NCBI GenBank assembly: GCA_944320495.1
Contig: CALUHR010000005.1
Location: 124,001 to 188,000, forward strand
Direction of reading: 5' to 3'
DNA length: 64,000 nt
Source of the DNA: Candidatus Methanomethylophilaceae archaeon
GTDB taxonomy: Archaea > Thermoplasmatota > Thermoplasmata > Methanomassiliicoccales > Methanomethylophilaceae
Position 1 is the first letter of the stretch. Every line of letters begins with the position of its first letter. Below, one piece after another: positions 6,970 to 64,000 of the stretch. Below the pieces are notes generated by a model. The model worked only from the letters and a program-made list of their open reading frames with translations, searched no databases and had not been told where the DNA came from. Position numbers and translations under genes: made by a program.

Positions 6970-7923
6970 ATGACTGCGAAAGACGAGCTTGAACTGATCG
7001 CCGTTGAGGACATCAAAGTGAAGAAGGGGATGACCGTCGAGGAGATGCTCCAGGCCATGGGACGCGCCGGAGGATTCACCGCCCAGAAGCTGGCGGACGC
7101 CACCGACATCGCCGAGGCCATGGTCAAGGACAAGGACTGCCTCAAGATCCTGTCCTTCCCGGCCTGCATCATGGCCACCGGAACCCGCGGCGTCATCGTC
7201 GACATGGTCAAGAACCACATGGTCGACCTCATCATCACCACCTGCGGAACCCTGGACCACGACCTCTCCAGGACCTTCGCCGCCTACTACAAGGGCGACT
7301 TCCAGATGGACGACGCCATGCTGAGGGAGAAGTACGAGATCAGCAGGCTCGGCAACGTCCTGGTCCCCGACGAGTGCTACGGAATCGTCCTCGAGGACGA
7401 GCTCCTGCCCATGTTCGACGAGATCTTCGAGGGAAAGGACTCCATGTCCACCCACGAGATCATCGACGCCGTCGGCGCCAGGCTGGACAACGAGGACTCC
7501 CTCCTGTACCAGTGCCACAAGAACAACGTCCCCATCGTGGTCCCCGGCATCACCGACGGATCCTTCGGATGCCAGCTCTGGATGTACTACCAGACCCACA
7601 GGAAGTTCAGGATCGACCTCTTCGCCGACGAGCAGATGCTCTCCGAGATGACCAACCACGCCGAGAAGACCGGCGCCATCGCCATCGGCGGAGGCATCTC
7701 CAAGCACCACGTCATCTGGTGGAACCAGTTCCGCGGCGGACTGGACTACTGCATCTACCTGACCACTGCCCAGGAGTACGACGGTTCCCTCTCCGGTGCC
7801 CGCATCAGGGAGGCCGTGTCCTGGGGCAAGGTCAGGTCCGGAGCCAAGAAGATGACCGTCGAGGGCGATGCCACCATCCACCTCCCGATTATCTACGCCG
7901 GCCTCGTCGAGAGGCTGCTCTGA
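6970..7923 (+). CDS. dys: Deoxyhypusine synthase
   Basis: 317 residues. Transfers the aminobutyl group of spermidine to the target lysine of initiation factor aIF5A, using NAD. Motifs: LSFPACIMATGTRG, TTCGTLDHDLSR, GITDGSFGCQLW, and the active-site stretch GGGISKHHVIWWNQFRGG, with the catalytic lysine in SKHH, followed by YDGSLSGARIREAVSWGKV. All are conserved. Codon choice is strongly biased to C-ending codons, suggesting high expression. One base separates its stop from the next ATG. Confidence 0.95.
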   Translation: MTAKDELELIAVEDIKVKKGMTVEEMLQAMGRAGGFTAQKLADATDIAEAMVKDKDCLKILSFPACIMATGTRGVIVDMVKNHMVDLIITTCGTLDHDLSRTFAAYYKGDFQMDDAMLREKYEISRLGNVLVPDECYGIVLEDELLPMFDEIFEGKDSMSTHEIIDAVGARLDNEDSLLYQCHKNNVPIVVPGITDGSFGCQLWMYYQTHRKFRIDLFADEQMLSEMTNHAEKTGAIAIGGGISKHHVIWWNQFRGGLDYCIYLTTAQEYDGSLSGARIREAVSWGKVRSGAKKMTVEGDATIHLPIIYAGLVERLL

Positions 7924-10095: not shown

Positions 10096-10208
10096 CTTCC
10101 CTTTTTCCGACAGTCTTTGGGAACGCTGGTGAATGTTACGAATCATCCGTCACCGTTTCGACGGATGCACCTGGTCCGAGGAGACCCGTCTCCGCGAAGA
10201 CACCTTCG

Positions 10209-21067: not shown

Positions 21068-21426
21068 CCGTCAAGATGTACGTCGAGATGAGGGAGAACT
21101 ACCCATGCACCGACGTAGAGGTGGAGATGACCCTCTCCGACGGCGACAGATCCGCCTGGTACGACTTCATGAAGTGCCGCGGACCCGTGTCCCTCTTCTG
21201 GGACGCCAAGGCCCACAGACTCATCATCCAGACGCCCAAGGTCTACGAGACGAAGGAGTTCCTTGAGTGCCGCAACTGCCACGCGTGGCTCCTCGGTTCC
21301 GAGATCTCCGAGGACAGGGATGGGTACGACGGCGACTGCTTCAAGAGGTGCCCGTGGTGCATGGGCCCGTCCGCCTTCGATCTCATGATGCCTGTCAGGT
21401 TCGAACCGGGGGGGGGTCGTCCTTGA
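21064..21426 (+). CDS. Hypothetical zinc-ribbon protein ending in a poly-G run
   Basis: 120 residues. A ribbon CRNCHAW...CPWCMG occupies about residues 69-101. The frame ends just after nine consecutive G (21408-21416); one fewer G would join it directly to a methyltransferase motif in the next frame. Confidence 0.55.
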   Translation: MTVKMYVEMRENYPCTDVEVEMTLSDGDRSAWYDFMKCRGPVSLFWDAKAHRLIIQTPKVYETKEFLECRNCHAWLLGSEISEDRDGYDGDCFKRCPWCMGPSAFDLMMPVRFEPGGGRP

Positions 21427-44030: not shown

Positions 44031-44094
44031 TTGCACGCGGGGGGGGGGGTCCGCTGTCTTCGGCTGTCCTCCCCGTCCTCCGTTCGGAGGGAAA
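44031..44094 (+). promoter_or_regulatory. Adhesin leader 1: poly-G (11) plus SD-sequestering hairpin
   Basis: TGCACGC followed by 11 G (44039-44049), a C/T-rich spacer, then CCTCC (44077-44081)-GTTC-GGAGG (44086-44090) and ATG at 44095. The Shine-Dalgarno GGAGG is the 3' arm of the hairpin. Nearly identical to leader 2. Confidence 0.85.
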
Positions 44095-46872: not shown

Positions 46873-46941
46873 AGATTGCACGCGGGGGGGGGGGGTCCGC
46901 TGTCTTCGGCTGTCCTCCCCGTCCTCCGTTCGGAGGGATAA
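46873..46941 (+). promoter_or_regulatory. Adhesin leader 2: poly-G (12) plus SD-sequestering hairpin
   Basis: TTGCACGC then 12 G (46884-46895), the same spacer as leader 1, CCTCC (46923-46927)-GTTC-GGAGG (46932-46936), ATG 46942. A TATA-like TTGTTTAACC at about 46832-46841 would put transcription start near 46865, so the G run lies within the 5' UTR. Confidence 0.85.
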
Positions 46942-49900
46942 ATGAATAGCAAGACAGTGGCCATCGTCGCTACAGCGGTGGCCTTCATTCTGGTGCTGTG
47001 CGTAGTGGTACCCGTTTCCGAGGAATCGGAGGCCGCCGACTACAACATCAATGATTCGCAGTCACTGAAAGATAATATCAGCACGATAACCAATGCGATA
47101 GCCTCGCAGTCCGCAACGAGCGCAACATATAACATCAAAATCACCAGCGACATCGAACTGGATTCTCTGAACCTGGATTTCAGTGGAAACAGGACTGAGG
47201 CGAAAAAATACACGATCAACCTCGACATCGGAACCAAAGAGGATCCGAAGACACTGACCCTTGCAGGAACGGAGACGGGGTCGGGGATCACAATCGCCAA
47301 CAACGGCCTCGACAGCATCACGATAAACATCAGATATGGCAACATCATCGACAACCGCACCCCGACGACGGGTCCGATGTCCACAATAACCGTGCAGGGG
47401 CCCGGTGATGGAACCGGCACCACCAATGCCACACTGCTCAACATGAGCGTCTCCTCCACCGTTCCGTCGACCTCCGAATCCAGTTGCATCCTGTCCGTCT
47501 CGGATGGGGCCTCCGTCACGCTCAACAGTGCCGTCCTCAAGACGAACGGGAATGACGGAACCGTAGGGGTATCGATGGAGCCAAACAACGGTTCCAAGAC
47601 CACGACACTGAAGACATACTTCGACACCCTGGTTGAATCGTCCGCCCAGGGAATCCTGACGGAAGTCGGAAAGACATCAATCTCAATGTCCGGCAACACG
47701 CATATCGTCAGCACCGGCTCCAATGCAATACAGCAGGACGGGGGAAAACTCACCGTCAGCAGTGCCAAAGTCGTGGTGGAAGGGGCTGATTACGCCATCT
47801 CCAAGAACGCAGGGGACCTCGCCGTCTCTGGCGGATTAATCAAGGGAACAATCGGTGCCATAGAGAACACCGGTACCAACAAGATCAGCACTACTCTGAG
47901 TCAAAGCGGAGGGGTGTTCAGCAGCGACATATCCGACGCATGCAACATAACCTCGGAATATTCCGTCGTACGGGTCGGAGACAGATTCTACGGATCCTAT
48001 GAGGGAGAAGAACCCGTCGCATCCATTGGAGATGCGAAATACTCGTCTATAAGCTATGTCAACGCCGCGCTCCACAGTTCAGATGCGGATTCGTTCGAAG
48101 TGACCCTGCTTTCCAATACGAGTAGCTCAACATTCACGCCCTTGAATGATGTTACCATCAATCTGAATGGATACAACCTCGCTCTGACCAGAAGCGATGC
48201 TCTCGTGGTGGACGGATTCTCCGTCGAAATCACAGGAACAGGCACTTTGAGTCTTTCCGCCCTCTCTATTCTCGGATCGGACGACCCGAACGCCGAGAAC
48301 TACAGCACGCTGAAGATCGGAGAAAACGTCACCGTCAAAGTGACCAACGCCATCATAATCGGCGAGGCCGACAGACCCCACGGATATGGGGTCGTCGTCG
48401 ATGTGAACGGAAAGATTGACGCTTCCACCGAACAGGGAAGCGAACCCCCTCAGGGAATCACCGTCAACGGAACCCTCAAGGACACCACCGGCAACACCCC
48501 AGTCATCAACGTCAACGGCGAGATTCTCGCGGTCAATAACAGCTACGCAATCTACGCCGCCGGATACGCCACATGGAACATCTACGGCAAGGTATCTGGC
48601 GGAACGGGAATCGAGATCCGCGCCGGAAACGTCAACGTCTACGATGGATCGACGATAACATCAACGGCTGAGGGGTTCACCGAGAAGAAGAACCCCGACG
48701 GCCCGACCATGATCGGTGCGGGAATCGCCGTCAGCCAGCACACCACCAACCTCCCGATCGCCCTGAACATCGAGGGCGGGGACATCTCCGGACCCTACGC
48801 GCTCTACGAGAAGGACCTCGAGGACGACACCGGAACGGAAGACATAGGCATGGAAGTCACCGGAGGTACATTCACCGGAACCACAGCATCCGTGTCCAGC
48901 GAGAACGTCAAGGACTTCCTCGCGGGAGGAACGTTCCTCAAGCAGAATGGCAACGAGACGCCCGTGGCGGACACCTCTCTGAACGAATCCGACCTCCTGG
49001 CGGGGGACCGCACCATCGACGAGGACGGAGGCGTCACCCTCGCGAACGCCGTCGCGAAGGTCGGCTCCGTGGAATACGGCACCATCGCCGACGCCGTCGC
49101 CGCGGCCAAGAACGGCCAGATTGTCACCCTGCTGAAGGATACTGCCGAATCCATAACCATTTCTGGCAAGGACATCACCCTCGACCTCGGGACCTACACG
49201 CTCACCAACACCGCCAATGAGCACACGATCACCGTCGAGTCCGGCGCGACCCTCACCATCCAGGGGAACGGTACCGTCGACAACATCTCCCATGCCAAGG
49301 CGGCCGTCTCCAACGAGGAGGGCGGCACCGTGACCCTGGAGGGCGGAAGCTACACCCGCAGCAAAGAGGCGGGGATGTCTAGCAACGACAACGGAGGCAA
49401 CTCCTACTACAACATCCTGAACCAGGGCACCATGACCATCAAGGCGGGGGTCACCGTATCCCAGAAGGGGGTCTACTCCAGCCTCATAGACAACGGCTGG
49501 TTCGATACCGACGGAATGACCGGCGACCATGAGGCCAAACTCACGATCGAGGGCGGAACGTTCACGGGCGGCAAGTACACGGTCAAGAACGACGACTACG
49601 GCACCGTCGAGATCTATGGCGGCACGTTCACCAACACGGCGCAGGCGACCGTCCTCAATTGGAACGAGATGACGATCGACGGAGGCACGTTCGACGGAAC
49701 TGGTGCTGGAGCGGTCATCGTGAACGGCCATTACGCTGACAGCAGTGTCGGTAGCCTGACCGTCAAGAAGGGACAGTTCAACGGCACAGTCGGAATCAAG
49801 GACGGCGGCTACGGTACTGGGACGACCATCCTCGTAGAGGGAGGTGATTTCGACGTCAGCGGCGACGTGTTCAGCTTCACCGGCGGCGAGCCCGACGTCT

Positions 49901-50712: not shown

Positions 50713-50824
50713 CCCTCTTAAGACCCCATAGCACGATTCTCCCCCCGCATGAAAATGCACGCGGGGGGGGGGCGACCGATTCTGTCTTCCCTCCTCGTCC
50801 TCCGCATAAAAAGGAGGGAAACGA
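50713..50824 (+). promoter_or_regulatory. Adhesin promoter and leader 3: poly-G (10) plus SD-sequestering hairpin
   Basis: A TATA-like CTCTTAAGACC at about 50715, then CCCCCCGCATGAAAATGCACGC and 10 G (50763-50772) in which C6, GCAT/ATGC and the G run can pair. CCTCC (50799-50803), nine-base loop GCATAAAAA, GGAGG (50813-50817), ATG 50825. Spacer and loop differ from leaders 1-2, but the plan is the same. Confidence 0.8.
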
Positions 50825-52333
50825 ATGAACAGAGCAGCTTTTGCGGCCATTCTCATAGCCGCCATCACCGCCCTGTCCATGATGGTATCCATGCCATCGA
50901 TGGAGGCCGAGGTTACGGACACCTGGGACGGTACCGCCGACATATCATGGTATGACGGCATGAAAACCGAGTATCATATCGACACGGCGGAGAAGCTTGC
51001 CGGACTGGCACAGATCGTGAATGGGGATCCAGCCGAAGAGTTGGAAGGGATCACGGTATACCTCGATGCCGACCTAGACATATCCGGGCATGAATGGGAT
51101 GCCATCGGACAGGGGAACAACGCATCTGGATTCTTCGGAGGGATATTCGACGGACAGGGGCACGAGGTCAGGGGACTGACCCAGCACGAGGCTGAAAGCA
51201 TCGGCCTGTTCTCCGTTATAGGGATGAGCGGTGCCGTCAGGAACCTCGGCGTAACGGAAGCCGACATCGATTACACCGGGAATCGCCTGGATGCCGGCAT
51301 CCTCGCGTCGTGGGTCGACGGAGGGGTGATCGAGGATTGCTACTCGACTGGTTCGATGTACATCGGAATGAACATGCTGATCGGAGGCCTCATCGGCCAG
51401 TGCACCGCGGGTGCGAGAGTCATAGGATGCTACTCCTCTGCCGATGTGACCGTAAACACGCCTGGGGAGGATATGACGGTTGGCGGCGTCATCGGACAAT
51501 GGGAGAATTCCACCGATGCGTCCCTGATCAAGGACTGCTACTTCTCAGGAAGCATACATGAGATAGGAGCCGGAGGCGCCGCGGTGGGCGGGATACTGGG
51601 GGCCAACTTCGATTTCTCCGGTCAGCCCGGCGTAGACATCGAGGGATGCTTCGTGACCGCGACAGACCTCGTAAGTTCTAACATGGACAACATCCTCTGG
51701 ATCGGGGCGTTAGTGGACGGCAACGTCTCGAATTGCTACTGGCCATCGGAGCCGGAAGAGCGTATGACCGTCGTCAAGATGGTGGTGGACTGGGATGCAG
51801 GTACCGCATCGGCCGATCCGGATTTCGATCAGAGCACCTGCGGCAGTGCCGTCACCGACTTCTCGACGGACGAGTTCCTCCAGACCCTCAATGGCGGAGG
51901 GGACACATGGATCGCGGGTCCGGACGGACATCCCATCCATTCCTGGGACGCCGTCAACCACCCCGCGGACTACTCCGAGGTGGAGGAGGCAGTCGCCATC
52001 GCTGGAGGGATGGATAGCTCCGACTACTCGAACTGGGAAACCGTTCAGTCCGCCATCGACGCCGTCGACTATGGCCTCACGTTCGACAGGCAGGCGGAGG
52101 TCGACGCCATGGCCCAGGTAATCCTGGATTCGATTGACGGTCTGGAACACGCTCTGCCTCCATTCATACCGTTCCCGCCCGAGCAGGGAGGGGACCCCGT
52201 AGAGGTGTATCCCAGCCAGGACAGCGATTCATCCGATGAGGATGGATCCATGAAGGTAGTCGCAGTCGCGGCCGCCGCTGTGATTGCGGCGATTCTCGCA
52301 ATCGTGCTGGCGTCCACATATCGTCACGACTAA
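50825..52333 (+). CDS. Adhesin-like protein with GLUG repeats, C-terminal anchor
   Basis: 502 residues. Signal peptide AAFAAILIAAITALSMMVSM. GLUG-type repeats follow: GIFDGQGHEVRGLT, IGLFSVIGMSGAVRNLGVTE, LIGGLIGQCTAGARVIGCYS and VGGVIGQWENSTDASLIKDC. Then a FIVAR-like helical segment (SAIDAVDYGLTFDRQAEVDA) and the shared anchor. Smaller and of different repeat type than cassettes 1-2, yet the same leader plan, anchor and 3' end. Confidence 0.85.
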   Translation: MNRAAFAAILIAAITALSMMVSMPSMEAEVTDTWDGTADISWYDGMKTEYHIDTAEKLAGLAQIVNGDPAEELEGITVYLDADLDISGHEWDAIGQGNNASGFFGGIFDGQGHEVRGLTQHEAESIGLFSVIGMSGAVRNLGVTEADIDYTGNRLDAGILASWVDGGVIEDCYSTGSMYIGMNMLIGGLIGQCTAGARVIGCYSSADVTVNTPGEDMTVGGVIGQWENSTDASLIKDCYFSGSIHEIGAGGAAVGGILGANFDFSGQPGVDIEGCFVTATDLVSSNMDNILWIGALVDGNVSNCYWPSEPEERMTVVKMVVDWDAGTASADPDFDQSTCGSAVTDFSTDEFLQTLNGGGDTWIAGPDGHPIHSWDAVNHPADYSEVEEAVAIAGGMDSSDYSNWETVQSAIDAVDYGLTFDRQAEVDAMAQVILDSIDGLEHALPPFIPFPPEQGGDPVEVYPSQDSDSSDEDGSMKVVAVAAAAVIAAILAIVLASTYRHD

Positions 52334-57095: not shown

Positions 57096-58634
57096 ATGAA
57101 CTGGAAGATGGCATTCGCCGTCGTTCTGATCATAGCGGTCGCCGCAGGGGCCGCCGTCATGGGCCTCGACGCCGCCGACGACGGCGGCATCGAGGACACC
57201 TACGTTGACAACGAGGTGTTCCAGGTGCCCTATGCCGCGGACGGTTCCATGGGCTCCGTCGAGATGGAGGGCTATCTGTCCTGGGATGAGGTGACCTTCA
57301 CCGCCGTCCCCAGCCAGGGATACTCCTTCGACCGCTGGGCCTACGCGTCCGACGGCTCCACCTACTCCGAGAGCATCTCCTTCACCGTACCGATCGGGAG
57401 CGTCCCCGATGTGGTGGCGTACTTCGTCCCTCTCGAAGGGAACAAGGTCGTCACCCTCGAGTGGGACATGCCCGCCTTCGACGGCGACGACATCGAGGTT
57501 GTCGCGGTCACCCACGATTCGTTCTCCGTCGCCATAGACTCCGCCGAATGGTGGGAGTCCGTCTACGGCGACGGCGACACCCAGAGGCACGCGACCTCGG
57601 ATGTCCTGGTCCCCTCGGCCCTGGTGGTATGCGACGGCGTCGTCGACGCCATAGCGGACCACCTGGAGCCGATGATGGCGGGGCTCACGGACACCCAGAG
57701 GGCGATCGCTGTCATGTACTTCGTGCAGGACGCGATTGACTACCGCGAGGACATCTCGCTGTACGGCGAGAGCGAGTTCTGGGCCCTGCCGATGGAGACC
57801 GTGTACTCCCTGGAGGGGGACTGCGAGGACACCTCCACACTGTATGTGGCGATCGCATCCGTCCTCGGCCTCCAGGCGGGGTTCGTCTCCTTCGAGGACC
57901 CCTCCGCCGGCCACATGGGCGCGGCCGTCGCCATAGTCGACGGCGCGCCCGTGTCCGGCAACGGGGTCTTCGGGATCGACGGGACGACCTACGCCTTCGT
58001 GGAGACCACCTCCGACGGGTACAACTGCCCCCTCGGCTCCCTGGGCACCTACCAGGGAGGGGTGACCTTCGACATCGACGACGGCAAGTGGACCCCCCTC
58101 TTCTACGAGGAGGGGACATTCACCTCCGGTGCCACCGCGCCGATCGCCGGGTCCTCCGACCCGGCGACCCAGTACGGGGTGGTGTACGGCTCCTTCTCGG
58201 AGCCGCCCTCCATCCCCCTGGGCGTCGGCGACACGTTCCTCTACGTCCCGACAACCTCCCTCCCGAGCGAGATCGCCGCCTCCGGCGACGGCCTCGTCTC
58301 GGAGGGGGGATTCCTTATCTGGGATGCGGAGGCGAACGAGCTCTCCGGGACCGCAGTCGAAGAGGGCACCTACACGGTGACCCTCTCCGCCTCCTGGACC
58401 CACGGGGAGCTGGAGCAGACCGCCACCCAGACGATCGTGTTCACCGTCTCCTCCTCCGCCCCGGACTACTCCGGGGAGGACGTGGAGCTGGTGTACTCCG
58501 CGGCCACGGGCGAGTGGAACATCGTGACCACCGAGCCCGTCAGCCCCGAGAGGGACAACTCGGTCCTCTGGATGGCGGCCGGCGCGCTGGCCGTCATCGT
58601 GGCGGGACTCCTGATCTGGAGGACGGTAGCATGA
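57096..58634 (+). CDS. Surface transglutaminase-like protein, anchored
   Basis: 512 residues. N-terminal signal/anchor MAFAVVLIIAVAAGAAVMGL, a small beta domain (SYDRW-like QGYSFDRWAYASDGSTYSES), then a transglutaminase-like domain: Cys in EGDCEDTSTLYVAIASVLGL (about 250), His in SAGHMGAAVAIVDG (about 280) and a following Asp. A cadherin/Ig-like domain follows, then the anchor VLWMAAGALAVIVAGLLIWR-TVA. Acts outside the cell, perhaps cross-linking or cleaving surface proteins. Overlaps the next gene (ATGA). Confidence 0.8.
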   Translation: MNWKMAFAVVLIIAVAAGAAVMGLDAADDGGIEDTYVDNEVFQVPYAADGSMGSVEMEGYLSWDEVTFTAVPSQGYSFDRWAYASDGSTYSESISFTVPIGSVPDVVAYFVPLEGNKVVTLEWDMPAFDGDDIEVVAVTHDSFSVAIDSAEWWESVYGDGDTQRHATSDVLVPSALVVCDGVVDAIADHLEPMMAGLTDTQRAIAVMYFVQDAIDYREDISLYGESEFWALPMETVYSLEGDCEDTSTLYVAIASVLGLQAGFVSFEDPSAGHMGAAVAIVDGAPVSGNGVFGIDGTTYAFVETTSDGYNCPLGSLGTYQGGVTFDIDDGKWTPLFYEEGTFTSGATAPIAGSSDPATQYGVVYGSFSEPPSIPLGVGDTFLYVPTTSLPSEIAASGDGLVSEGGFLIWDAEANELSGTAVEEGTYTVTLSASWTHGELEQTATQTIVFTVSSSAPDYSGEDVELVYSAATGEWNIVTTEPVSPERDNSVLWMAAGALAVIVAGLLIWRTVA

Positions 58635-59941
58635 GCGCAGCCAGAAGGGCCATCGCCCTGATGGCCGTGATCGTGACCCTGACGGCCGCCTTCGCTGTTG
58701 TGGGAACCGTAGGGTTCGACGACAGCGAGGGGTCTGTCGAGATTGTCGACGGATTCAGAGCGGAATCCGAATCCGAGATGACCCAGATGGTCCTCGACGA
58801 GGACGGTACCGAACTCATCGAGATCACGGCTGTGATCCGCTCGGACGGCTGGGTGAAATTCACATACGGCCCCGTGCTCGAGGACAGCCGCAATTATCTG
58901 GCATACACGATCGGCTTCAAATTCGGCGATAACCCCCTCAGGGAGGGACACTCTGCGATGGAGGGCGTTAATCCCGCACTCATAGAGAACGCCGGACTCC
59001 AGCCGACCGGCGAGGGTTACGGATACGCCGAATTCTACATGGCGGAGGATGGGGTAAGTGCAGACACCCCCATCGGCCCCGTGACCAGGTTCGATTTCAC
59101 CTTCACCGCCCAGACAATCTACAACTACACCACAACGATAACATACGATGCCAACGCGACGGGAGATTACAACCTCCCTCCGACGACCTCCCGCGAGGAC
59201 AGTAGGACATCCGCGTCCACCATGAATGTGAGTCTCACCGCCTCCTCGACCGAGCTCACCCGCGACAGGTACGTCCACGTCGGATGGAACACCAAAGCCT
59301 CCGGCGACGGCGTCCACTGCGACCTCGGAGGGAGCATCGACGTGAGGATCGGCGATGACATAACCCTCTACGCCGAGTGGGAGATTGTCTCCCATACCGT
59401 GTCGCTGTACACGACCGACGACACCACGCCCTGGAAGCAGGTGTCGGTCCAGGACGGACAGGTACTGTCCGTCGGCGACCCGACCCCGCCCGAGGGACAG
59501 TTGTTCGCCGGATGGTACACCGACAACACCCGTTCCACCCCGTTCGACCCCACTACGGCGATCACGGCGGACGACGCCCTCTTCGCCAAGTTCGTGGACG
59601 AGCTGGAGTTCACCACCACGCCCACGGCCAAGGCCAACGTCACCTCCGTGGAATCCAGCGGCACGTTCGTGTTCGACTCCGGTGCATCCGCATCGGCCGC
59701 CAAGGTGCTCTGGGAGTTCCCCGACGGCACCACATCCACCGACAGGGTGACCACGCACTGGTTCGAACCTGGAACCCATACTGTCAAGCTGACCGTGTGG
59801 AACAGCAACGGCGAGATGTCCGAGACGGAGTTCGACGTCACCGTCACCGACGGTAACGACAATCTCCCGATCCTCTGGATCGCCGCGGGCATCCTCGCAG
59901 TCGCAGTCATCGGCATCGTGATCTGGAGGGTTGCGATATGA
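58631..59941 (+). CDS. Surface protein with InlB repeats and PKD domain, anchored
   Basis: 436 residues. Signal segment IALMAVIVTLTAAFAVVGTV; a unique N-terminal domain; two Listeria-Bacteroides/InlB-type repeats (YVHVGWNTKASGDGVH...ITLYAEWEI and LFAGWYTDNTRSTPFDPTTA); a PKD domain (AAKVLWEFPDGTTSTDR...THWFEPGTHTVKLTVWNSNG); anchor NLPILWIAAGILAVAVIGIV-IWRVAI. Coupled to both neighbours by ATGA overlaps. Confidence 0.82.
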   Translation: MSAARRAIALMAVIVTLTAAFAVVGTVGFDDSEGSVEIVDGFRAESESEMTQMVLDEDGTELIEITAVIRSDGWVKFTYGPVLEDSRNYLAYTIGFKFGDNPLREGHSAMEGVNPALIENAGLQPTGEGYGYAEFYMAEDGVSADTPIGPVTRFDFTFTAQTIYNYTTTITYDANATGDYNLPPTTSREDSRTSASTMNVSLTASSTELTRDRYVHVGWNTKASGDGVHCDLGGSIDVRIGDDITLYAEWEIVSHTVSLYTTDDTTPWKQVSVQDGQVLSVGDPTPPEGQLFAGWYTDNTRSTPFDPTTAITADDALFAKFVDELEFTTTPTAKANVTSVESSGTFVFDSGASASAAKVLWEFPDGTTSTDRVTTHWFEPGTHTVKLTVWNSNGEMSETEFDVTVTDGNDNLPILWIAAGILAVAVIGIVIWRVAI

Positions 59942-61323
59942 ACGCATCCAACCGCGCGGTCGCCATCCTGGCAATCGTCGTCACCCTTCTCTCGGCATCG
60001 TTCGTGGGAATCGTATTCTCCGACGATGCCGACGCCAGCAGCACTCCGACGGAGCTCATCCACATGGGCACTGCCTCGGACAACATCACATCCGACAACC
60101 CCGCCGTCATCGAATACGGCGGAGAACCCGCAGTGGAGGTCTACGTCAACAGCAACCTCTCCGACGGCGAATCCGCCGAATCCTGGGACAAGACCGTCTA
60201 CTTCCGCTTCGTTTCCGACGCGCTGAAGGGCTACAACATCTACATCTACGACACGTGGTACTTCACGGACGGTTCCTCGGACGAGTACAACGGGAACAAC
60301 GCTCTCAACAGGAGCAACGAGTACTGGAACACCAACGCGTGGTCCTCGCTCAGGCCCGTCAACCTGACGATGGACAGCGGGGTCAACCGCATCGTCATTC
60401 ACGCCTACATCAACGACCAGGACAGCGGCTACTCGGGGAAACCCGACAGGCTCTCCGGGACCAACGAGGTCACCTTCGACTTCACCCTGGGCAGGACTGA
60501 CGGGTACACCTACGTCACGAAGGTGTCCTACGACATCAACTACTCCGGGGGTTCCAACCCCAACGCGACCTCCACCGATCCCGTGTACCGGCCCTCCGCG
60601 TCCACGGAGAATGTGAAGGTCAAGATCGCGGGCGAGCAGACGAGGTCGGGTTACACCCACGTGGGATGGAACACCTCCTCGTCCGGGAACGGCACCCACT
60701 ACGACGTCGGAGCCACCATCGACGTGAGGATCGGCTCCGAGATCACCCTCTACGCAGAGTGGCAGATCGACAGCCACTCGATAGCACTGTACACGACTGA
60801 CGACTCCAACCCGTGGAAGACGGTATCCGTCCAGCACGGACAGCATCTCTCGATAGAGGATCCGACGGCCCCCGAAGGGAAGCTGTTCGCGGGCTGGTAC
60901 ACGGACAACACCAGGACGCAGCCCTACGACTATCCGAGCGTGACGGCGGACGATTCGCTGTATGCTTTGTTCGTCGACGAGCTGGCGTTCACCACCACGC
61001 CGACGGCGTCCCAGAACGTGACTCCCATCGAGCCCGAGGGGACGTTCATGTTCAGCTCGCTCGAATCCGAATCCGCTGCGAAGGTTCTCTGGGAGTTCCC
61101 CGACGGGACGACTTCTACCGACAGGGTGACGACCCATTGGTTCGAACCCGGTTCCTACAAGGTAAAGCTGACCGTCTGGAACAGTCTCGGAGAAGCATCC
61201 ACCACGGAGATTCAGGTCGAGGTCGGAGAGGAACCCGACGAGGATTCGAACGTCCTGATCTGGGTTACCGCTGGGATCGCGGTCGTGATCGTCGCCGTCG
61301 TCGTGGCGAGGAGGTTCATATGA
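59938..61323 (+). CDS. Surface protein with InlB repeats and PKD domain, anchored (paralogue)
   Basis: 461 residues. The same plan as its predecessor; the C-terminal ~230 residues are near-duplicates (HVGWNTSSSGNGTHYDVGAT, LFAGWYTDNTRTQPYDYPSV, AAKVLWEFPDGTTSTDRVTT), while the N-terminal domain differs (DKTVYFRFVSDALKGYNIYI...TWYFTDGS). Anchor NVLIWVTAGIAVVIVAVVVA-RRFI is in frame. Tandem duplication with exchange of the N-terminal domain. Confidence 0.82.
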   Translation: MNASNRAVAILAIVVTLLSASFVGIVFSDDADASSTPTELIHMGTASDNITSDNPAVIEYGGEPAVEVYVNSNLSDGESAESWDKTVYFRFVSDALKGYNIYIYDTWYFTDGSSDEYNGNNALNRSNEYWNTNAWSSLRPVNLTMDSGVNRIVIHAYINDQDSGYSGKPDRLSGTNEVTFDFTLGRTDGYTYVTKVSYDINYSGGSNPNATSTDPVYRPSASTENVKVKIAGEQTRSGYTHVGWNTSSSGNGTHYDVGATIDVRIGSEITLYAEWQIDSHSIALYTTDDSNPWKTVSVQHGQHLSIEDPTAPEGKLFAGWYTDNTRTQPYDYPSVTADDSLYALFVDELAFTTTPTASQNVTPIEPEGTFMFSSLESESAAKVLWEFPDGTTSTDRVTTHWFEPGSYKVKLTVWNSLGEASTTEIQVEVGEEPDEDSNVLIWVTAGIAVVIVAVVVARRFI

Positions 61324-62645
61324 ACATGACTAAAACCCGCGACATCAGCGGGAGATCGGCCGCCATCGGCATCGTCGTGCTGATGGCGGTCGCCGCCCTG
61401 GCGATCGTGCCGATGTGCTCGGACGATTCCGAGGCCGTGACGGATCTCGGAGTTTACACCGGCGGAACCAATCTGAGCAGTAAGGACGCCGCATATTCTG
61501 GAATCGAGGTTGACATCTCCAGAATCAATGGGATGACACTCTTCGTCTCAATGGGCGCCCAAATCAAAGTGACATATGACAACTACGTCGACAAATATGA
61601 TGATAATTCGAATGGATTGGGAATGGGATGGAGCATCGGATCTGGCACAGTTTCCGAATACGGAAGTTGCAGATGGGAGGATGCAGCAATCAATTCCTTC
61701 AAACTCATCTGCCTCGATCCGAACAACATTACGAATCTGGGACCATACACTGGCGGAGAGAATCTGAGTTTTGAGAAAGCTGCATATTCTGGCGTAAACG
61801 CCAGTGTCACAGATGATGCTTTTCCAAACACTGGTGCGGGTCGTCCAAATGATATCTATGTGTTGCCTGGGGCCCATATACGCATTGTTGCAGAGGACAC
61901 GGGCCCTTCTTTCACATACTACCCGAATTGGTTCATCTCGTCTACCAATGGGAGAGGGTTGGAGGTGATTGATGGGACAGTCCCAGGCTACGGCGAATGG
62001 TTGGTGATGTGGGACGGTATCGTTCACATCGACATAGGGCTAGTGTGTCTGGGCCCCAGCCACACCGTAACCTTCAACTCGAACGGAGGTTCCGATGTCC
62101 CCAACCAGGTGACCGACTCCGACGGATACGTCATCGCCCCCGAGGACCCCGTCCTCGCGGGCCATGTGTTCGCGGGATGGTTCACCGACGACGGAGAGCC
62201 CTTCGACTTCTCCCAGCCCGTGACATCGGACATCACCCTCCACGCCCAATGGGTCGACGAGCTCGTGTTCACCACGACTCCCACATCCAACGGCACGGTC
62301 CAGTCCGTCCCGATGATGGAGGGCATGATCGTCTGCGACGCCACCCAATCTTCCGATTACACGTCCATCCTCTGGGACCTGGGGGACGGGACGTTCTCCA
62401 CCAACACATACGTCACCCACAGCTACGCCTCTCCGGGGCAGTACACGGTGACGCTCACGGTCTTCAACGAACATGGGAGTGATACCACGGAATTCACTGT
62501 GAACGTGCCCGAGGATGCCGGCAGGGGGGGGGGGGCAGTGACCTCTTGCCCTACGTTCTCGTCGCCATCCTGGCACTCGTATCGGGAGGTCTGGTCCTCA
62601 GACGTCTCCTGTGAACTGATGACAAATGAGGGGGTGTTCCAGTGA
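61320..62645 (+). CDS. Surface protein with duplicated LGxYxGG domain, anchor out of frame at poly-G
   Basis: 441 residues as sequenced. Signal segment IGIVVLMAVAALAIVPMCSD, two copies of a ~95-residue unknown domain (TDLGVYTGGTNLSS... and TNLGPYTGGENLSF...), an InlB repeat (FAGWFTDDGEPFDFSQPVTS) and a PKD-like domain (TSILWDLGDGTFSTNTYVTH). After DAGR a 12-G run shifts the frame: as given, the tail is soluble and ends at GTGA with the next gene. With 10 or 13 G the tail becomes SDLLPYVLVAILALVSGG-LVLRRLL, a proper anchor. The central part is AT-richer than the ends. Confidence 0.8.
   Translation: MNMTKTRDISGRSAAIGIVVLMAVAALAIVPMCSDDSEAVTDLGVYTGGTNLSSKDAAYSGIEVDISRINGMTLFVSMGAQIKVTYDNYVDKYDDNSNGLGMGWSIGSGTVSEYGSCRWEDAAINSFKLICLDPNNITNLGPYTGGENLSFEKAAYSGVNASVTDDAFPNTGAGRPNDIYVLPGAHIRIVAEDTGPSFTYYPNWFISSTNGRGLEVIDGTVPGYGEWLVMWDGIVHIDIGLVCLGPSHTVTFNSNGGSDVPNQVTDSDGYVIAPEDPVLAGHVFAGWFTDDGEPFDFSQPVTSDITLHAQWVDELVFTTTPTSNGTVQSVPMMEGMIVCDATQSSDYTSILWDLGDGTFSTNTYVTHSYASPGQYTVTLTVFNEHGSDTTEFTVNVPEDAGRGGGAVTSCPTFSSPSWHSYREVWSSDVSCELMTNEGVFQ
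62524..62535 (+). repeat. Poly-G run (12) at the anchor junction
   Basis: Twelve G encode Gly codons just before the C-terminal membrane span. 12 G: soluble tail to 62645. 11 or 14 G: stop after GGGQ. 10 or 13 G: membrane anchor ending at 62614. Confidence 0.9.
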
Positions 62646-63964
62646 ACACCCTCTCGAACCTCAAAACCATAGCCGTGGCCGCAATCGCGATCGTCTCGGC
62701 GCTGATGTTCGTACCGATGATGTCGGACGATTCGGATGCGGTCACGGATCTCGGAGTTTACGCCCAAGAGGGGGAGAATGTCAGTTCTCCGACGGCGCTC
62801 TACTCCGGCATCAATGTATGGACAACCGTAGCATTCGTTGACAACAACGAGGTTTACTACGTCTCCCCCGGATCGGAGATCACTTTCGTCATGAACGACA
62901 TCGGGGGACTCACCATCGATTCGAAGGACAAACTCGGATTGAAGGAGGATTCGAGTGTTGGAATCTATGGCGGAATCAGCGGGACGATCACCGGCCAGGG
63001 GTATGTGGAGATCACAGCCGAGGGGGAGTTTTTCTCCAAGTTCTCGTTCTACGTCGCCTGCATCGACCCGAACGGCAGTTCCGATCTCGGAACATACGAT
63101 GGCGGACCCAACATGAGTTCGCCAGAGAAGACGTATTCCAAGATTGAAATACGTGGCTATACCGACTTTTGGAATTTGATCGACGGTTCGAATCTCGTCG
63201 TCTACGTCTCTGATGGGTCGGAGGTTTGGGTCCAGGGTGCCATAATGAGCACGAATCTGGAACGCAACGATCTGAATCTCTCCATTGCTGACATGGAGAT
63301 ATTGTATGGGACGGTCGAAGGCTATGGAACCACGATTTTCAGATCCGAGGCATCACTGTTCACGGTTGTGTGTATGGCCCCTACTCACACCGTCGTCTTT
63401 GACTCCGAAGGCGGTTCCAGTGTCCCCAATCAGGTAACCGACACAGACGGCATCGTCACCGCCCCCGAGGACCCCGTTCTCTCAGGATACATCTTCGGCG
63501 GCTGGTACACCGAGGACAACATCCCGTTCGACTTCTCCCAACCCATATCAGAGGACATAACGCTCCACGCCAAATGGATCGAGACACTCGTCTTCACCAC
63601 GGTTCCAACATCCAGCGGTACCGTCAAGGCCGTCCCGATGATGGCGGGAACCATCGTATGCGACGCATCCCAATCCAGCGACTACACGTCGATCCTCTGG
63701 GATCTCGGGGACGGGACCACATCCACCAACACGTATGTGACACACTACTACAGCCAGCCCGGGACCTATGAGGTAACCCTCACCGTCTTCAACGAACACG
63801 GAACGGATGTCACTACATACACTGTCGAGGTTCCCGAGAGCTCGACCGGGGGGGGGGGCATGACAACCTTCTCCTCTACATCGCAGTCGGACTGCTCGCA
63901 ACCATTCTCATCGCAGTCGTCGCATTGCGGTTGCTCTGACCACTCCATGGGGGCGGTCGCGTGA
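62642..63964 (+). CDS. Surface protein with duplicated LGxYxGG domain, anchor out of frame at poly-G (paralogue)
   Basis: 440 residues as sequenced, from GTG (GTGA). The same order as its predecessor: signal segment IAVAAIAIVSALMFVPMMSD, two LGxYxGG-type domains (TDLGVYAQEGENVSSPTALY and SDLGTYDGGPNMSSPEKTYS), InlB repeat (FGGWYTEDNIPFDFSQPISE), PKD-like domain. An 11-G run after ESST puts the tail in a Ser/Cys-rich frame. With 9 or 12 G the tail is HDNLLLYIAVGLLATILIAV-VALRLL, a clear anchor. Confidence 0.8.
   Translation: MNTLSNLKTIAVAAIAIVSALMFVPMMSDDSDAVTDLGVYAQEGENVSSPTALYSGINVWTTVAFVDNNEVYYVSPGSEITFVMNDIGGLTIDSKDKLGLKEDSSVGIYGGISGTITGQGYVEITAEGEFFSKFSFYVACIDPNGSSDLGTYDGGPNMSSPEKTYSKIEIRGYTDFWNLIDGSNLVVYVSDGSEVWVQGAIMSTNLERNDLNLSIADMEILYGTVEGYGTTIFRSEASLFTVVCMAPTHTVVFDSEGGSSVPNQVTDTDGIVTAPEDPVLSGYIFGGWYTEDNIPFDFSQPISEDITLHAKWIETLVFTTVPTSSGTVKAVPMMAGTIVCDASQSSDYTSILWDLGDGTTSTNTYVTHYYSQPGTYEVTLTVFNEHGTDVTTYTVEVPESSTGGGGMTTFSSTSQSDCSQPFSSQSSHCGCSDHSMGAVA
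63848..63858 (+). repeat. Poly-G run (11) at the anchor junction
   Basis: 11 G: soluble tail to 63964, its stop overlapping the next start (GTGA). 10 G: immediate stop (GGGA then TGA). 9 or 12 G: membrane anchor ending at 63939. Confidence 0.9.
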
Positions 63965-64000
63965 CCGCCCCTGTAAACCTCAAGACGGCCTTCGTGACGA
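63961..64000 (+). CDS. Next surface-protein gene of the operon, partial
   Basis: GTG start overlapping the previous stop; only MTAPVNLKTAFVT is inside the window. NLK-T-A matches the start of the preceding signal peptide (NLKTIAVA), so the tandem family probably continues. Confidence 0.5.
   Translation, partial: MTAPVNLKTAFVT

Follow-up and report, generated by a model that had tools for sequence, protein, structure and literature searches.

A candidate poly-G switch between anchored and released surface proteins in a Methanomassiliicoccales archaeon

We analyzed a 64,000-nt window of the genome of Candidatus Methanomethylophilaceae archaeon (GenBank assembly GCA_944320495.1, contig CALUHR010000005.1, positions 124,001 to 188,000 of the forward strand), in which tandem paralogous surface genes carry long G runs directly before their C-termini. 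Slipped-strand phase variation at these runs probably makes the ectodomain of each protein either anchored in the membrane or released. More broadly, we lean towards the view that the Methanomassiliicoccales possess a genome-wide system of poly-G phase variation, the first in archaea, which would comprise signal-peptide frame switches, self-contained leader RNAs whose tract length sets the exposure of the ribosome site and, in this species, the anchored/released switch.

Direct reading of the window confirmed that two adjacent paralogues possess runs of exactly 12 and 11 G (hereafter, G12 and G11) before the C-terminus, as stated in the original prediction (Table 1). The array extends past the window on the same contig (C5), where paralogues 3 and 4 carry a tract at the equivalent place. 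In the four genes, the tracts (G12, G11, G11 and G12, respectively) lie directly between the PKD domain and the transmembrane anchor, but the genes are found in three different phases: paralogues 1 and 2 are unanchored with the anchor at +1, paralogue 3 is anchored as sequenced and paralogue 4 presents an immediate stop with the anchor at +2. The tails read in the sequenced frame of paralogues 1 and 2 are indeed non-hydrophobic (17-residue hydropathy maxima of 0.31 and −0.21). The addition of a single G yields LLPYVLVAILALVSGGLVLRRLL in paralogue 1 and LLLYIAVGLLATILIAVVALRLL in paralogue 2, with hydropathy maxima of 2.32 and 2.83, which agrees with the prediction that one extra base restores an anchor in both genes. 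With two additional G, a stop follows GGGGQ (paralogue 1) or GGGGA (paralogue 2), also as predicted. Anchors are intact in all four paralogues, three of them out of frame (hydropathy of 2.32, 2.83, 2.38 and 2.95), and 1.3% of random 78-nt stretches attain a hydropathy of 2.3. The reading frames on both sides of the tract are likewise intact in the four genes.

Table 1. Coordinates of the paralogous array, its neighboring genes and the leader tracts. Positions refer to the window unless preceded by the locus name L061.
Feature	Position	Strand	Description
Paralogue 1 as sequenced	61320..62645	+	Signal peptide, N-terminal region, Listeria-Bacteroides (InlB-type) repeat, PKD domain, Gly linker, unanchored tail; start overlaps the stop of the preceding gene (ATGA); its TGA stop (62643-62645) and the paralogue 2 start overlap
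G12 tract, Gly linker of paralogue 1	62524..62535	+	Phase: unanchored
Out-of-frame anchor of paralogue 1 (SDLLPYVLVAILALVSGGLVLRRLL)	62536..62614	+	Stop 62612-62614; read at G10 or G13
Paralogue 2 as sequenced	62642..63964	+	Architecture as paralogue 1, with an unanchored tail; overlap between its stop and the paralogue 3 start
G11 tract, Gly linker of paralogue 2	63848..63858	+	Phase: unanchored
Out-of-frame anchor of paralogue 2 (HDNLLLYIAVGLLATILIAVVALRLL)	63859..63939	+	Stop 63937-63939; read at G9 or G12
Paralogue 3 (start)	63961..64000	+	Rest beyond the window, L061:7962-9248; G11 at L061:9159-9169; reads the anchor as sequenced
Paralogue 4	L061:9276-10187		G12 at 10170-10181; immediate stop as sequenced
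Upstream operon gene	57096..58634	+	In-frame anchor, without G tract
Upstream related gene, InlB-type repeat and PKD	58631..59941	+	In-frame anchor, without G tract
Upstream related gene, InlB-type repeat and PKD	59938..61323	+	In-frame anchor, without G tract; ATGA overlap with paralogue 1
Leader G11	44039..44049	+	45 nt upstream of ATG of a signal-peptide surface gene; ribosome-site hairpin
Leader G12	46884..46895	+	46 nt upstream of ATG of a 1236-aa surface gene at 46942
Leader G10	50763..50772	+	52 nt upstream of ATG of a surface gene at 50825

The original prediction further proposed a toggle between anchored, soluble and truncated forms. Support for the switch of the anchor comes from the presence of four paralogues in three phases, from the maintenance of an uninterrupted tract and from a family of such tracts present across the order; the distinction of three forms is weaker. 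In the stop frame, translation would end one or two residues after the linker and the complete ectodomain would remain, just as in the soluble frame. The toggle therefore probably has two states, with the soluble and truncated forms counting as a single unanchored state.

The window contains seven G runs of 9–12 nt, none of 7–8 nt, and its longest C run does not exceed 6 nt. Based on a Markov estimate fitted without those runs, the expected number in the window is 0.04–0.6 for runs of at least 9 nt and 0.001–0.05 for runs of at least 11 nt. Across the 1.77-Mb genome, we identified 21 G runs of at least 9 nt, with a modal length of 11 and a maximum of 13. The distribution of run lengths presents a near-gap at 7–9 followed by a peak at 11, which is the pattern of hypermutable tracts and not the tail of a base composition. 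As in contingency loci, these repeat tracts are far longer than expected by chance and a change in their length alters the product, since frame analysis places the anchor in one of three phases. Surface genes and two methyltransferases are repeatedly among the targets, but about half of the G tracts of this genome have no assigned gene.

We further analyzed how the tract and the frames behind it have evolved. Over the 153–155 codons that precede the tract, fourfold-degenerate sites differ by 48–66% between any two paralogues, which is near saturation, and GGG represents 22% of the Gly codons in neighboring genes. Despite this divergence, each of the four paralogues encodes its Gly linker with an uninterrupted G run, which indicates that the run itself has been kept, beyond the glycines that it encodes. 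The pure tract is maintained by selection, by slippage or by both, slippage itself tending to purify a run. Within the anchor region (pairs 1–3 and 2–4), we counted 18, 11 and 23 differences at anchor-codon positions 1, 2 and 3, respectively, a distribution that modestly favors the anchor frame as the one under selection. A reading in the soluble frame would place the maximum of these differences at position 2, and the soluble tail therefore looks like a by-product, with no sign in these sequences of being a selected module.

These observations can be combined into a mechanism. The G11–G12 runs, which encode a flexible Gly linker leading from the PKD domain to the anchor, would grow or shrink through slippage of the strands in replication, and these changes would go unrepaired, as the known mismatch-repair enzymes were not detected. 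Among 31 genomes of Methanomassiliicoccales, MutS_V was not detected in any and NucS_C was not detected above its cut-off in any, with controls including Haloferax being positive for both; the order seems to be devoid of both known mismatch-repair systems. One tract length in three would read the anchor and keep the exported ectodomain on the membrane. The remaining two lengths would lead to a hydrophilic tail or to a stop just past the linker, and the ectodomain would be released (or lost). With four tandem genes slipping independently, the surface would become combinatorial. We infer slippage in living cells, the existence of the released form and its biological use, which might oppose adhesion to a decoy function or allow escape from viruses or from host immunity.

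Several observations weigh against this interpretation. The differences in tract length seen here are differences between paralogues, with one genome per species. In addition, the draft assembly may have misjudged the length of individual runs, and the release of the unanchored form is itself presumed. Finally, the homologues of the four paralogues in three other genomes (G015, G016 and G023) contain no G tract, indicating that the C-terminal switch is not conserved even within the genus. From this distribution, the switch looks like a local invention made from a common tool.

The two tracts first noticed are both off by the same base, and the original prediction had cautioned that systematic under-calling by one G would produce this pattern. 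However, the G11 of paralogue 3 already reads into its anchor and the tract of paralogue 4 is two bases out of phase, so that no common correction anchors all four genes and systematic under-calling is inadequate as an explanation. More generally, errors of assembly or of homopolymer calling could hide four genes that are all truly anchored in frame, and the source genome is indeed a draft of 14 contigs with long G runs, which are error-prone. We nevertheless consider such errors an unlikely explanation: the corrections needed (+1, +1, 0 and +2) fit no single systematic bias and, even if the lengths were wrong, unbroken GGG at near-saturated synonymous sites shows that the tract has been kept. 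Alternatively, both forms could be produced together from one fixed DNA length, as long homopolymers can cause transcriptional slippage or ribosomal frameshifting. The position of the soluble-frame stop on the next start codon in all four genes speaks for this scenario, since it could preserve translational coupling. Without DNA variation, however, fixed lengths are expected, whereas the paralogues are found in three phases, and tracts in non-coding leaders need no frameshift; we therefore regard this scenario as improbable.

It is also conceivable that the tracts grew neutrally as homopolymers in the lack of mismatch repair and that three of the four genes are decaying pseudogenes. MutS and NucS were not detected and tandem paralogous arrays often decay, but decay is difficult to reconcile with intact frames around the tract in all four genes, with the preservation of the out-of-frame anchors and with differences that are most frequent at the third positions of the anchor frame. 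Moreover, neutral growth would not account for a window without long C runs or for tracts that recur at defined sites in surface genes, and we regard this reading as improbable.

We then searched for such tracts in other genomes. At least one run of ten G was found in 33 of the 41 genomes examined first. In a class-wide sample of 203 genomes, up to 36 exact G11 tracts per genome were observed in Methanomassiliicoccales, against at most two in each of the 127 genomes from other orders of the class. Two genomes belonging to one other genus contain 36 and 15, and the genome of the window and its relative G015 contain nine each. In surface genes, the tracts occupy three kinds of position: after a signal peptide, within a 5′ leader or before the anchor. 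In a genome of Methanomassiliicoccus (G029), tracts of G11–G13 stand directly behind signal peptides of about 30 residues in large surface proteins, whose lengths range from several hundred to over 1500 residues. In five of its loci (L104, L105, L108, L110 and L113) the 30-residue signal peptides preceding G11–G13 are near-identical, and two of these loci are in frame and three out of frame. In the same genome, a gene resembling those of membrane acyltransferases contains a G tract close to its start and a second one in the middle (L101:7131-7141 and 7763-7773). Three relatives of the same genus as the window genome (G015, G014 and G016, one of them a single contig) contain many tracts located 41–49 bases before the ATG of surface genes.

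Genome G015 also presents tracts that interrupt two DNA methyltransferase genes beside catalytic motifs, before DPPY (L117:6709-6720) and before DPFIGTGTT (L119:8593-8602), both out of frame as assembled, and these represent possible archaeal phasevarions. The genome with 36 exact G11 tracts (G098, same family; e.g., loci L259 and L272) presents another repeated design, in which the inverted repeat GGGGAAAT..ATTTCCCC and a coding sequence resembling a signal peptide come after many of the tracts. Among 120 distinct tracts from the fetched loci, no anchor switch was found beyond the four paralogues. An order-wide pattern search combining a G tract with hydrophobic codons returned mainly signal-peptide-like cases and is poorly sensitive, catching one of the four known genes.

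The leader tracts, three of which lie in the window (44039, 46884 and 50763), share a characteristic layout: the G run is followed by a C/U-rich stretch and then by a CCTCC-loop-GGAGG hairpin just 5′ of the ATG, which hides the ribosome site. We computed the folding of 19 leaders, whose observed G lengths range from 10 to 13. The predicted mean exposure of the ribosome site was 0.18–0.19 at G9–G11 and rose to 0.26 at G12, 0.50 at G13, 0.66 at G14 and 0.74 at G15. The gain from G11 to G14 was 0.47 with the native spacer and 0.05 with a shuffled spacer, and the addition of A in place of G did not reproduce the rise in this folding calculation. These predictions suggest that an extra G would displace the strand that pairs with the ribosome site, turning translation on. 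The RNAalifold consensus of the leaders supports the pairing of G with the C/U-rich stretch and contains no compensatory changes, such that the evidence for the leaders is thermodynamic and comparative and not based on covariation. Leaders with a C-rich partner and a hairpin were further identified at loci L059, L060, L115, L116, L118, L122, L123, L222, L223, L246 and L248.

In bacteria, simple-repeat phase variation is a textbook strategy linked to hosts and phages, and bacterial poly-G tracts mostly switch genes on and off. The tracts described here resemble the poly-G contingency loci of Campylobacter, Helicobacter and Neisseria in their purity, in their length of about 8–13, in their surface-gene and methyltransferase targets and in that the tract phase sets the frame (PMC11868660). 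They differ in that the host is an archaeon and that the tract stands at the 3′ end, where it moves the protein between an anchored and an unanchored state. The leaders are comparable to that of Helicobacter pylori tlpB, where a variable G repeat in the mRNA leader sets expression through its length; however, the tlpB repeat is read by the small RNA RepG, whereas the present leaders carry their own C-rich partner and a ribosome-site hairpin (PMC8295292).

Orsi et al. (2010; PMC2831843), whose survey included 18 archaeal genomes, present homopolymers in coding sequence as a means of reversible inactivation; the parts available to us stress poly-A/T of up to 7–8 bases near the 5′ end and describe no poly-G at a 3′ anchor. 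The adhesin-like surface proteins of gut methanogens are similarly secreted and repeat-rich, and no phase variation is reported for them in the literature that we found. A 2025 review of phase variation leaves archaeal cases to future work (PMC11868660). The original prediction held that such a switch would be unusual for an archaeon, and we indeed found no description of phase variation by such tracts in archaea, methanogens or Methanomassiliicoccales in the open-access literature, subscription papers being outside this search. The mechanism is that of bacterial contingency loci, and what is apparently new is the archaeal domain for poly-G phase variation and the membrane anchor as an unusual target. 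Wide use of the tracts in this gut-dwelling order of methanogens would mean that the strategy is not confined to bacteria and occurs in a lineage where neither MutS nor NucS is detectable, and archaeal surface variation would become directly testable from existing reads. If the anchored/released switch is real, one gene could serve as an adhesin or as a decoy.

The four paralogues and three neighboring genes match PF09479 and PF00801/PF18911 above the curated Pfam cut-offs. All seven present a signal peptide (by inspection) and an anchor frame that ends in a hydrophobic helix followed by basic residues, the sequence features of exported surface proteins. In-frame anchors were seen in the genes upstream of paralogue 1, as the original prediction stated for two of them, and each of the upstream genes starting at 57096, 58631 and 59938 overlaps the start of the following gene through ATGA. 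The array is followed by a fifth gene (L061:10285-12156) with a Gly-rich linker and no G run.

The soluble-frame stop overlaps the next start in the four paralogues (61320-63964; L061:7962-10287), with NTGA in three cases and TGATG in one, although the four genes, being tandem copies, are not independent. The stop of the anchor frame lies 24–30 bases before the next start and that of the short frame 100–103 bases before it, and tract phase may also affect translational coupling along the operon.

The G9 run at 21408-21416 of the window was considered as part of a full phase-variable methyltransferase and rejected, since the match to the Pfam profile is confined to its last 39 positions. The run links the C-terminal end of an N6/N4 DNA methylase to a small, unrelated open reading frame, and the arrangement looks like a remnant or a fusion. 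Finally, matches of the paralogue 3 model in the PDB were generic Ig-like strings (global template modelling (TM) value <0.2) and were not used. The model itself (mean predicted local distance difference test (pLDDT) of 62) presents beta-rich domains and a predicted helix at residues 405–427, the position of the anchor.
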